A stretch of 55,975 nucleotides of DNA from a virus. The stretch's first letter is position 1. Every line of letters begins with the position of its first letter. The translations under genes were made by a program, and so were the position numbers. The stretch lies in IMG/VR virus record IMGVR_UViG_3300002933_000012, positions 1 to 55,975 of that record. The stretch is one strand, 5' to 3'. The notes beneath the pieces are model-generated. The model was not told where the DNA came from, made no database searches, and saw only the letters and a list, made by a program, of their open reading frames with translations. Below, one piece after another: positions 20,820 through 24,927 of the stretch.

Positions 20820-21215
20820 ATGAACATTCCACTGACAGGGGTTAGACATATTGACATGGATCACTCTGCCATCATTAATATGTTGGATGAGTTGAATAAC
20901 CACCTTGATGGTGCATTTAATTTGAATGAAACAGAATATACTGACATCCTGCTTCACATTTTGGACTATTGCTCTCGACATTGCAGAGAAGAAGAGTCTA
21001 CTATGCACAAGATTAACTATCCAGGAATATCTTTTCACCATGATAAACACACGGAGATGATCTTTGCTATAAAAGATTGTCTCCGTGCTACAATGGAGAG
21101 AAAGATTACCAGGAAAGAAAACGTTCAAAAATGCAGAGAAATTATTTACGATCATATTACCAGATGTGACTCGTCTTTTGCCACTTTTTGTAAGGAACAT
21201 GACATTTATTTATAA
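20820..21215 (+). CDS. Hemerythrin-like di-iron protein
   Basis: 131 residues. All seven ligands of the hemerythrin four-helix bundle are present with textbook spacing: H15 in DMDHSAI, H54 and E58 in HCREE, H73 and H77 in HHDKH, and H112 with D117 in DHITRCD. Such proteins bind O2 reversibly at a di-iron centre, or sense or buffer oxygen, iron or NO. No extra domains or signal peptide, so a single-domain cytoplasmic bacteriohemerythrin. It lies in a string of accessory genes between the metallopeptidase and the lysis-type genes. SD is weak (AAGG). A phage-borne complete hemerythrin is uncommon. Confidence 0.88.
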   Translation: MNIPLTGVRHIDMDHSAIINMLDELNNHLDGAFNLNETEYTDILLHILDYCSRHCREEESTMHKINYPGISFHHDKHTEMIFAIKDCLRATMERKITRKENVQKCREIIYDHITRCDSSFATFCKEHDIYL

Positions 21216-22797: not shown

Positions 22798-22883
22798 CCT
22801 CCCTTTGCCACACGGTGATGGCAGTGGCCTTTTAAGTCACCTTCCGTAAGGAATAGCGGGTTCAACTCCCGTGGGGAGGACCA
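22798..22883 (+). tRNA. tRNA-Lys(UUU) with an extended variable arm
   Basis: Acceptor CCTCCCT pairs with GGGGAGG, followed by A and encoded CCA. D-arm GCC...GGC; anticodon stem GTGGC/GTCAC with loop CTTTTAA gives anticodon UUU; T-arm GCGGG-TTCAACT-CCCGT. The variable region is about 15 nt and forms TTCC-GTAA-GGAA, a class II-type arm not expected for tRNA-Lys, which normally has a 4-5 nt variable loop. A second, ordinary tRNA-Lys(UUU) is at 29353. Confidence 0.75.
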
Positions 22884-22889
22884 TTCAAT

Positions 22890-22992
22890 GCGCCTATAGT
22901 TTAATGGTAGAACAGTTGGCCTATACCCAACCACCGAAAGGTAGCCGCTAGATGTGCGGAGTGTCTTGGTTCAAATCCAGGTGGGCGTACCA
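22890..22992 (+). tRNA. tRNA (anticodon UAU, Ile-like) with ~33-nt variable-region insertion
   Basis: Acceptor GCGCCTA / TGGGCGT plus A-CCA; D-arm GTTT-AATGGTA-GAAC; anticodon stem GTTGG/CCAAC with loop CCTATAC; T-arm CTTGG-TTCAAAT-CCAGG. The loop reads UAU as anticodon but position 33 is C, not the near-universal U. Between CCAAC and the T-stem lie about 33 nt with two mini-hairpins, ACC-GAAA-GGT and CCGC-TAGATGT-GCGG. Either a tRNA with an extraordinary variable arm, an unprocessed insertion, or a tRNA-shaped RNA with another job. Confidence 0.65.
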
Positions 22993-23044: not shown

Positions 23045-23617
23045 ATGCAATGTAAAAAATGTGGGGCAGAGTTCACTCCAGGAAAAGGGCTAAAGAGCTT
23101 CTGTAGCTTAAAATGTAGAAATTCTCAAAATTTTAGTGAAGAGAGTAAAAAACTCAAATCATTAAAAAATAAAGAGTTTCATGCTTCTTTAACTGAAGAG
23201 GAACTTGTAAGACTAAAAGATAAACTAGATAAAATGAGAGAAAAGAGAACCACCAGATTTGATTACCTGTTTTCCAAAAAGTTTGAAGACTTGGCTTGGG
23301 ATTCTAAAAGAGCCAGAGTTATTGTTGAACAAGAGTTGAAATGTAATAGATGTAAGATTGATTCTTGGTTTGGCCTTCCAATTACTCTAGAAGTAGATCA
23401 TAAAAATGGGAACAACAATGATGATTCAAGAGAAAATCTTGAGGGTCTGTGCCCAAACTGCCATAGTCAAACTCCAACTTGGAGAGGTAGGCATGAAAAT
23501 AATAAACAAAAGAATCTTAAAATGATTAGAGTTCAGAAAGTTCTTGAAGAGATCGTTGCTAGAGATAGTGACCCAGCAGCATTTTCCAGTACACAGCAGC
23601 ACAAAAGCAAAAAGTGA
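23045..23617 (+). CDS. HNH endonuclease (probable homing type)
   Basis: 190 residues. N-terminal zinc ribbon CKKCGAEF...CSLKCRNSQN, a Lys/Glu-rich linker, then an HNH module: CNRC, EVDHKNGNNNDD with the DH pair, N in ENLEGLCPNCHSQT. The CxxC pairs bind structural zinc. HNH nucleases nick or cut DNA and often move genes near tRNAs. Located between tRNAs and the large noncoding RNA, with a weak SD (GAGG) before ATG 23045. It is likely an invading mobile gene. Confidence 0.82.
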   Translation: MQCKKCGAEFTPGKGLKSFCSLKCRNSQNFSEESKKLKSLKNKEFHASLTEEELVRLKDKLDKMREKRTTRFDYLFSKKFEDLAWDSKRARVIVEQELKCNRCKIDSWFGLPITLEVDHKNGNNNDDSRENLEGLCPNCHSQTPTWRGRHENNKQKNLKMIRVQKVLEEIVARDSDPAAFSSTQQHKSKK

Positions 23618-23619
23618 AG

Positions 23620-24275
23620 GAGAAACAACAGACCTCCCTTTTGTCGGGAATAACGCCATGTTGTAAAGGTCAATGGCTTGCTTTTGTGAAACTGGACGAG
23701 AACTAGCGCGATAGCAAATGAGCAGGTTTGCGACCTAGCCGCTAGCTAGTCAGGAGCCTTCGCAAAGCCACCTGGAGCAACTCGTAAAACTCCAAAAAGT
23801 ATCTTGGTGCTACACTGAGGGAGGCACGTTGTAAGCTCCCGGTCACAGGAACTACGCTGCAAAATCCAAGACTCACCCTGGACAGGCATGAAGACCAGGG
23901 ATGTAAATCAGGGTGCCATAACTCGTAAGGGCTGGCGATGAGAAAGGAAGTTGATAGATCGGCAACCACCCAAAAAAATCTAAGGTCGGATGTTTCAGTT
24001 GAGAGGCTGAAATGAGCAAAATGACAGTGGGGGAGAGGTCAACAAGACTCAAACGAGAACTCACCATCCGACTAACACGTTTCTTACTGGTCCCATTCAC
24101 GGTAAGCTGGAGAAAACGGCTACTTGTTCCTGAAACGATAGGGAACTAACAATCCAGAACCAAGCTGATTGATGCAAAGAAGTTGAATGGGTAATCGTAA
24201 CGGATACTTGGGACGGAGAAAATGGGGGACCGTGATTACATGAAGCCCATAACAGAGAAACCCAAGACAAATCTT
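23620..24275 (+). ncRNA. Large (~650 nt) highly structured noncoding RNA
   Basis: No supported ORF, visibly more GC-rich than neighbours, many complementary pairs. Seen directly: GCCAT/ATGGC (23655/23673); GGGAG/CTCCC (23819/23836); CACCCTG/CAGGGTG (23874/23909) with CCTGG/CCAGG as an alternative; an 8-bp perfect helix GTCGGATG/CATCCGAC (23985/24065) that encloses TTTCAG/CTGAAA; CTTAC/GTAAG (about 24083/24101); GTTCC/GGAAC (about 24126/24142); GTAATC-(gta)-ACGG with CCGT-GATTAC (24191/24230); and CTTGGG (24207) with CCCAAG (24261), which crosses the last helix as a pseudoknot. The setting (phage, beside tRNAs and an HNH gene) resembles GOLLD/ROOL RNAs. Boundaries are approximate. Confidence 0.7.
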
Positions 24276-24282
24276 TCCGCTA

Positions 24283-24312
24283 CGTTTATTTTTCTAAAAA
24301 TTGGGTATTAAC
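24283..24312 (+). promoter_or_regulatory. Promoter-like element with TTGGGTATTAAC
   Basis: TATTAA at 24306-24311 in the context AATTGGGTATTAAC. Close copies (AATTGAGTATTAAC) stand before genes at 29021 and 32119. A TACGTTT stretch lies about 23 nt upstream and is partly matched in front of the 28974 copy. Probably an extended -10 variant. Confidence 0.45.
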
Positions 24313-24329
24313 ACACATAGGAGCAATAC

Positions 24330-24347
24330 ATGAGTCGTTTCACCTGA
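24330..24347 (+). CDS. Five-codon leader ORF
   Basis: ATG-AGT-CGT-TTC-ACC-TGA (MSRFT) with a fitting SD (TAGGAG). It ends 3 nt before a hairpin that covers the SD of the next gene, so ribosomes translating it could open or leave that hairpin. Confidence 0.35.
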   Translation: MSRFT

Positions 24348-24350
24348 ATA

Positions 24351-24376
24351 ACCTCCAACGCTTAACGTTTGGAGGT
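24351..24376 (+). promoter_or_regulatory. SD-sequestering hairpin
   Basis: ACCTCCAA (24351-24358) pairs perfectly with TTGGAGGT (24369-24376). The 3' arm holds the GGAGG used by the ATG at 24382. The hairpin would keep the start closed unless melted or reached by an upstream ribosome. Confidence 0.6.
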
Positions 24377-24381
24377 GCCTT

Positions 24382-24519
24382 ATGGCCCAATCAGCAAAGC
24401 ACAGCAAGTCTGTGCAAAAGATGTCCGATGAGCAGTTGCAGTCGGTCATCAGTAGTGGCTCTCTTCTTCACGCTGCGGCTCGTTTTGAGTTGCAGAGAAG
24501 GGGGGCTAGCAGGAAGTAA
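24382..24519 (+). CDS. Small basic protein (45 aa)
   Basis: MAQSAKHSKSVQKMSDEQLQ continues to a basic end (RRGASRK). It has a perfect SD (GGAGG, 6 nt spacing) inside the 3' arm of a hairpin. The helical core LQSVISSGSLLHAAARFEL is amphipathic. Family unknown. It lies between the large RNA and tRNA-Gln. Confidence 0.6.
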   Translation: MAQSAKHSKSVQKMSDEQLQSVISSGSLLHAAARFELQRRGASRK

Positions 24520-24525
24520 CACAAG

Positions 24526-24599
24526 TGGGGTGTAGGCTAATGGTAAACCAGAACCCTTTGAAGGTTCCCTTACAGGTTCAAGTCCTGTCGCCCTAACCA
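24526..24599 (+). tRNA. tRNA-Gln(UUG)
   Basis: 74 nt: acceptor TGGGGTG / CGCCCTA, A-CCA encoded; D-arm GGCT...AACC; anticodon stem GAACC/GGTTC with loop CTTTGAA, anticodon UUG; variable loop CCTT; T-arm ACAGG-TTCAAGT-CCTGT. A normal class I tRNA. Confidence 0.85.
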
Positions 24600-24836: not shown

Positions 24837-24927
24837 GGCCCCATGGTGAAATTGGTAGACACGTTGGCTTCAAATTCCAATGCGAAATAACAGTAGCGTC
24901 CCGGTTCGATTCCGGGTGGGGCTACCA
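24837..24927 (+). tRNA. tRNA-Leu(CAA)
   Basis: 91 nt class II tRNA: acceptor GGCCCCA / TGGGGCT, A-CCA; Leu-type D-arm GTGAAATTGGTAGACAC; anticodon arm TTGGC-TTCAAAT-TCCAA (one C-T mismatch at the loop end), anticodon CAA; variable arm about 19 nt (TGCGAAATAACAGTAGCGT); T-arm CCCGG-TTCGATT-CCGGG. Confidence 0.87.

Follow-up and report, generated by a model that had tools for sequence, protein, structure and literature searches.

The stretch of virus DNA analysed here, which we call the window, is an IMG/VR virus record of 55,975 bases, and positions 23618-24290 of its plus strand probably encode a large non-coding RNA that represents a new class, carried by tRNA-rich phages. From comparison of the sequences and of the helices that they can form, we put this reading at roughly two chances in three. 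We read the class as like GOLLD and ROOL in its setting, but as a member of neither. A sequence-only reading of the window had pictured a structured non-coding RNA beside phage tRNAs in such a setting, and that picture has held: a core domain within the RNA (hereafter W) covaries among homologues, is free of any long frame and lies on the strand of the tRNAs.

The locus and its surroundings

The limits of W are putative, the 5' end being the stop codon of an HNH endonuclease gene (23045-23617, plus strand; phrog_10822, 1.4e-22) and the 3' end a guess at a T-rich stretch. Open runs on the plus strand across 23618-24290 are of 48 codons at most, and no ORF of at least 85 codons lies between the HNH gene and the tRNA-Gln gene that starts at 24526; the minus strand carries two 75-codon ORFs (23742-23969 and 23873-24100) that are unsupported. 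The GC content of W, 0.474, which had been noticed as higher than in the neighbours, is high for the whole stretch, being equalled or exceeded in only 3 of 83 windows, and its A-over-T skew of 0.237 is extreme, being reached in 1 of 83, where either count may include an overlapping window.

Genes for tRNAs lie on both sides, at 22798-22883 and 22890-22989 upstream and at 24526-24599 (the tRNA-Gln, plus strand, found by both ARAGORN and Rfam) and 24837-24927 downstream, and in this placement within virus DNA W resembles GOLLD. The sequence-only reading had named an HNH gene as well as tRNAs among the neighbours; the HNH gene does lie upstream, but it is not a constant direct neighbour among the relatives, whereas the tRNAs are, and an HNH-partnered reading of W was dropped for this reason. 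A reading of W as an intron in a tRNA was also dropped, there being no Rfam match. The HNH gene and a small ORF are common to the loci of W and of the RNA type T described below, and one gene is common to T and a further type, M; the sequenced part of the neighbourhood of M gave no tblastx hit to the window. The tRNA at 22890-22989 (100 nt, plus strand; Rfam, 51.1 bits) was missed by standard ARAGORN, has a region ahead of the T arm that is unusually long and is reported as a tRNA-Leu with an intron once introns are allowed.

Downstream of W lies a small conserved ORF of 45 aa (24382-24519, plus strand), with 74.6% nucleotide identity over 122 nt in loci L092 and L057 and 71% over 167 nt in L203. 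The region 24320-24519, in which this ORF is preceded by a shared AGGAGCAATACA and accompanied by a tiny upstream ORF and a GGAGGT hairpin, is kept in all three loci and looks like a leader-regulated small protein gene. The non-coding stretches upstream of the same ORF in L092 (7502-8496) and L057 (6755-7694, minus strand) have ends that are 97% and 100% identical around a middle that has been replaced. Elsewhere in the window, at 20820-21215, the phage encodes a hemerythrin-like protein (Pfam PF01814, 7.7e-07).

W is rich in complementary segments, and all of those named in the sequence-only reading were found in place. They can be drawn as a candidate helix of 8 bp (GTCGGATG at 23985 with CATCCGAC at 24065), as GGGAG (23819) with CTCCC (23836) and CACCCTG (23874) with CAGGGTG (23909), and as a candidate 3' pseudoknot (24191-24266, plus strand) in which GTAATC 24191/GATTAC 24234 would be combined with CTTGGG 24207/CCCAAG 24261. 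A further candidate helix of 8 bp pairs CCCATTCA at 24092 with TGAATGGG at 24184. Short local helices are in excess over shuffled sequence, with 32 of at least 5 bp within 60 nt against 19.6 +/- 4.7 (0 of 60 shuffles) and 15 of at least 6 bp within 120 nt against 10.2 (2 of 60). Helices of at least 7 bp within 300 nt show no excess, their number being reached by 13 of 60 shuffles, nor do those of at least 8 bp (2 against 1.8; 33 of 60 shuffles), and the plus-strand fold of W is not unusually stable (z of +0.28 with 20 shuffles and +0.34 with 100; -0.93 for the minus strand). Among the other RNA types, folding z is not striking for T (-1.35), A (-1.43) and M (-0.98) and clearly low for C (-3.08). 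Since neither the long helices nor the folding energy of W departs from chance, complementarity by itself decides little, and it is the comparative evidence that is strong.

A core domain in five RNA types

The comparison began with a match of 16 bases between W and non-coding DNA next to tRNAs in phage G010; at E=0.199 this match means nothing by itself, and it served as a search pattern. The spread of the class was assessed by scanning IMG/VR, and in one case GTDB genomes, for exact patterns. A 15-mer scan returned 30 contigs, four of them real (the window phage twice, G010, and L092 from record G016), lying beside tRNAs, outside long open stretches and in the same orientation; none of the other 26 has a tRNA in its locus, and 24 fall in open stretches of at least 100 codons. 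From a refined loop-pattern scan came 11 contigs, of which nine are real, adding types T (L203/L205) and M (L209) as well as RNA C in two more contigs; the other two, L202 and L204, lie inside a 163-codon open stretch. Two further pattern scans gave 35 new viral and 21 bacterial loci (tRNA within 4 kb in 0/56) and a last scan gave 38 contigs, eight known and 30 new, and all of these new loci were judged to be chance matches. The core is present in nine IMG/VR contigs besides the window record, with RNAs A and C together in G010 and G016; the contigs of T and M and two of those of C are 15-62 kb long.

The core of W, of about 100 nt, recurs in the four other RNA types (A, C, T and M). Its consensus order is helix P1 of 5-6 bp, GCUACAC, helix P2 with a variable tip, AACUWCGCUGCAAARU, the 3' strand of P1 (P1'), a spacer, and hairpin P3 with AGGCAU in its loop, and in the window this signature, with no long frame and on the tRNA strand, lies at 23802-23900 (plus strand), where the covariance model built from all types (R3) places it. 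In W, P1 pairs TCTTGG (23802-23807) with CCAAGA (23866-23871); the 5' strand reads GTCAGG, TCTGGT, GACTGA or GTCGG in the other RNAs, with compensatory changes in the 3' strand. GCTACAC (23809-23815), whose last C starts P2, forms the 5' side of the conserved internal loop and is identical in W, A, T, C and M. The 3' side, AACTACGCTGCAAAAT (23850-23865), conforms to (G)AACUWCGCUGCAAARU, with A(A/T)CTWCGCTGCAAART in 5/5 types and one extra base in A of G010. P2 (23815-23848; CTG 23815-23817 with CAG 23846-23848) has outer pairs that vary yet stay paired and a tip, holding GGGAG and CTCCC in W, that differs between types in sequence and in length (a few nt up to about 70). In RNA M (the L209 core) the P2 tip resembles, by eye, a tRNA T arm plus the acceptor 3' strand (AGGGGTTCAACTCCCTTGGGCTAGCCA).

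P3 (23876-23900) pairs CCCTGG at 23876 with CCAGGG at 23895 around the loop ACAGGCATGAAGA, in which AGGCAT occupies 23884-23889, and both the pairing and AGGCAT are kept in all five types. The CACCCTG/CAGGGTG helix of the sequence-only reading survives in part: its segments are present and models R1 and R2 fitted CACCC/GGGTG as P3, but, as an outer alternative, it shares bases with P3 drawn as CCCTGG/CCAGGG. The latter pairing is preferred, though not settled, because it gives AGGCAT the small loop that it has in the other RNAs.

The core loops hardly change from type to type. The helices do change but remain paired: across the five types, each of P1, P2 and P3 occurs in 5 to 6 distinct versions. 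In a three-sequence alignment (A7), which was fitted to its own structure and in which the third helix of the window is CACCC/GGGTG and not CCCTGG/CCAGGG, 12 of 17 pairs have changed on both sides, against a mean of 4.9 after shuffling (0/500) and at most 1 in slid controls. Across the five types all 65 helix pairs, picked by eye on the same sequences, are kept, where 38.0 would be expected after swapping partners (0/20,000 shuffles). Both counts are flattered by the way in which the helices and the alignment were obtained; the covariation in homologues that had been proposed as a check of W is nevertheless found for the core. G-U pairs in P2 of A and in P3 of A1 and M are possible only on the plus strand, since the complementary bases would not pair, and this identifies the plus strand as the RNA. 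All tRNAs that ARAGORN finds within 3 kb of a core are on the strand of that core, and the longest open stretch through any core is of 98 codons.

Of the three covariance models, R1 was built from the G010 RNA alone, R2 from the window, L092 and G010, and R3 from all types. R1, run on 603 kb, gives window positions 23802-23915 as its third hit with E=0.0018, the first two being G010, its own source, and L092, and the fourth having E=8.6; R2 finds RNA C in G010 with E=0.016 in 1.24 Mb, before any pattern showed it. These two matches are the most independent evidence for the family. R2 also scores T at 3e-6 and M at 0.042 in 239 kb, on contigs that had been preselected by the letters of the loop pattern, and not by GCUACAC or any helix. 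With R3, complete copies score 60.9-83.8 bits and two copies truncated at the end of their locus 41.7 and 35.4, the next best being 13.9 bits in 1.18 Mb with nothing new above 13.8 in a further 538 kb, and the 30 chance matches of the last pattern scan reach 19.5 bits at most; given that R3 includes all types, its scores are not independent. A first-pass genome profile search with R1 missed the window itself, so the negatives of that search, including those of the single-model GOLLD and ROOL searches, are weak, and those of cmscan and of cmsearch on fetched stretches are stronger.

A second motif, UGAAACGAUA, lies in the same RNA at 24131-24140, in the loop of a hairpin GTTCC-TGAAACGATAG-GGAAC (24126-24146, plus strand), and is present in W, T, M and C. 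The 13-mer CTGAAACGATAGG is common to W, T and M, and the 10-mer TGAAACGATA is found in C as well; the 11-mer GAAACGATAGG has exactly three copies in 1.12 Mb of these phages and their relatives, in W, T and M, and is absent from 0.98 Mb of 112 other loci. By eye, the two bases flanking the motif on either side pair as CC/GG in W and as GC/GC in T and M, and in C, with a shift of two bases outwards on one side, as GG/CC. Elsewhere in G010 and G016 there is one copy of TGAAACGATA that has no core with it.

The distribution of the element is patchy. Two larger IMG/VR contigs of the window phage (100.9 and 139.8 kb) are identical to the window over the 20.7 kb compared and hence useless for covariation, and ARAGORN finds no tmRNA in the 139.8-kb contig. 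The nearest named relative is Tunturiibacter phage Tunturi_5 (PP885688.1; 309 kb, acidobacterium host), in which the SNF2-type helicase is 54.5% and UvsX 45% identical. Its genome is given 43 tRNAs in PMC11924767 and ARAGORN finds 41 in the array that we fetched, which, unlike the window, contains neither a core nor an exact copy of the second motif. A tRNA splicing ligase is annotated inside that array. Alignment of the helicase brought in 18 viral loci (three of them weak, at 21-28% identity); their records reach 314 kb, and some have dozens of tRNAs. It is the lack of a core in the whole of G005, G006, G011 and G015, in parts of G013 and in the Tunturi_5 array, tRNA-rich relatives all, that marks the element as patchy. 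G004, with a 70% identical helicase, was set aside; collinearity is confined to the downstream part, the first 8.4 kb carrying different genes and neither a tRNA nor anything that matches W. Neither W, by blastn against named phages and plasmids, nor RNAs T, M, C and A, against named phages, gave a match.

The proposed large RNA and its alternatives

Between types only the core and the second motif are conserved, and they occur in both orders, 152-367 nt apart, with the motif 3' of the core in W (322 nt) and M (179 nt) and 5' of it in T (367 nt) and C (152 nt); RNA A has the core without the motif. This would suit a small RNA domain of about 100-130 nt, the rest of the 650 nt being ordinary tRNA-cluster spacer and not part of any giant RNA. 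Outside the core W has no significant similarity to RNA A (four dinucleotide-shuffle tests, p 0.24-0.87), and its 3' part, unaligned with A, shares only the second motif with T, M and C in exact words of 12; that W and A do not align beyond these elements counts against a single RNA of about 650 nt. Local alignments of whole RNAs, W against 17 non-coding stretches on both strands with two scorings, mostly gave z below 3 (single-base shuffles), and the G010 stretch holding RNA A gave -0.2 to 0.4. Five values exceed 3, among them 3.3 for L057 5522-6345 (minus strand), which overlaps RNA C, and 3.6 for L057 6755-7630 on the wrong strand. A non-coding stretch of the G010 tRNA array, L057 10075-11156 (minus strand), gave 3.9 and 3.7 against W, and no core was found in it. 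The flanks, however, run for hundreds of bases without long frames, and in W they are A-rich with the excess of short helices described above. RNA A, moreover, is 84-86% identical between G010 and L092, setting aside about 250 nt that are inserted in G010, and of its 172 consensus pairs five have changed on both sides, 15 on one side and none is broken. A TATAAT-like sequence upstream of RNA A is kept in both phages. We regard the small domain as a possible but unlikely reading, and prefer the large RNA.

Every member of the family lies on the tRNA strand among tRNA genes, and RNA C of G010 ends 7 nt upstream of the phage tmRNA, which is what one might expect if the core acted only in cis, in the processing or regulation of the tRNA/tmRNA transcript (as a site for a protein or nuclease of phage or host, for example), with no function in trans. 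Against such an element stand the spacing between P3 and the tRNA or tmRNA that follows, which ranges from 7 nt in C to about 625 nt in the window, and a copy number of one or two per record against 5 to 49 tRNAs, and we consider it improbable, at long odds.

Several other features of these arrays were recorded. Phage tmRNA genes lie in the tRNA arrays of L057 (5527-5930, minus strand), L179 (136-539), L207 (1596-1999) and L203 (1763-2163, minus strand), with a further one, by Rfam only, in L209 (2982-3397, minus strand). Sub-threshold Rfam matches include a wcaG RNA upstream of the RNA C core (L092 8670-8770 and L057 6481-6581, minus strand; 30.9 bits against a threshold of 42) and a skipping-rope RNA near the tmRNA of T (L203 1431-1559, minus strand; 31 against 36.7). 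At L092 3903-4070 and at about L057 11980-11830 (minus strand) there are tRNA-like genes that appear, by eye, to contain, close to the anticodon, a structured insert of some 60-90 nt; ARAGORN with introns allowed does not report them.

The sequence-only reading had placed W, by inference from setting and style, with GOLLD or ROOL, and that membership is not supported: neither covariance model matches in the window phage at E <= 10, and a cmscan of 23500-24520 with permissive filters gave no match at E <= 10 to any of 4227 Rfam 15 families. OLE, HEARO and other families there are in some cases also large and highly structured, and none matches W. The GOLLD model (RF02032), which was run without a positive control, found nothing in G000 or G002, a single noise hit of 5.8 bits in G013, and nothing at E <= 1 in the records of A, C, T and M. 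For the ROOL model (RF03087), which found nothing in the window phage, there is a positive control, in that 2 of 295 other genomes match, at 339 and 366 bits, and R3 in turn finds nothing in these two true ROOL loci. Neither RNA is among the Rfam matches of L092 and L057 (E <= 1) or of L203 and L209 (E <= 0.1). In PMC12286853 GOLLD is described as a large, structured RNA with conserved and less conserved parts that occurs in phages and prophages, often near tRNA islands, and ROOL too is often near tRNA islands. The conserved region of GOLLD is 3' and its model has 416 positions, whereas the core found here is of about 100 nt and varies in its place within the RNA; ROOL is a phage and prophage RNA with a model of 574 positions. 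A divergent GOLLD or ROOL RNA would fit the same phage tRNA-cluster setting and a similar size, the likeness of the M tip to a T arm and the facts that GOLLD has a less conserved part and that its linker sometimes carries tRNAs (PMC12286853), but we hold it to be highly improbable and, at the level of sequence and structure, already largely refuted. No such RNA was found in the open-licence papers searched or in Rfam 15.

What the RNA may do

On the preferred reading of a large RNA of a new class, W would be transcribed together with the tRNA cluster, with RNA A also having a promoter-like conserved sequence of its own, and would be released, at least in part, by the enzymes that process the ends of tRNAs and tmRNA. 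It may then fold into a stable, compact particle. That the loops are fixed while the helices are rewritten is as expected of tertiary or intermolecular contacts, and the near-invariant loops (GCUACAC/AACUWCGCUGCAAARU, AGGCAU and UGAAACGAUA) could be sites of contact with other copies of the RNA, with a protein or with the translation machinery. The remainder would be scaffold that is freely replaced, and these RNAs do seem to evolve by module exchange. By analogy, the RNA may work as GOLLD and ROOL do, as a structural RNA that is abundant in the lytic phase; according to PMC12286853 both form RNA-only cages, and GOLLD rises during lysis and is reported to bind ribosomes.

One may go further and imagine a modular RNA family of tRNA-tmRNA arrays, with fixed contact loops, an exchanged scaffold and either order of the two motifs as a natural permutation, that would build an RNA particle serving phage tRNAs, tmRNA or ribosomes in the lytic phase. 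Natural RNAs can be permuted, according to PMC10085705. We consider this extension speculative and distinctly unlikely. With one copy of the core directly before a tmRNA, the search for a function points to translation, and the two fixed motifs give defined bases to mutate.

Few large ornate RNA classes of bacteria and phages have been described, three of them being treated in PMC12286853, and their functions are unsettled. Metagenomes could be scanned with a first covariance model of the core described here, which is sufficiently short and strict for that. A separate class, with an unrelated core and two fixed motifs in the same setting, would make large RNAs next to phage tRNA genes a recurrent solution and not the oddity of one family.
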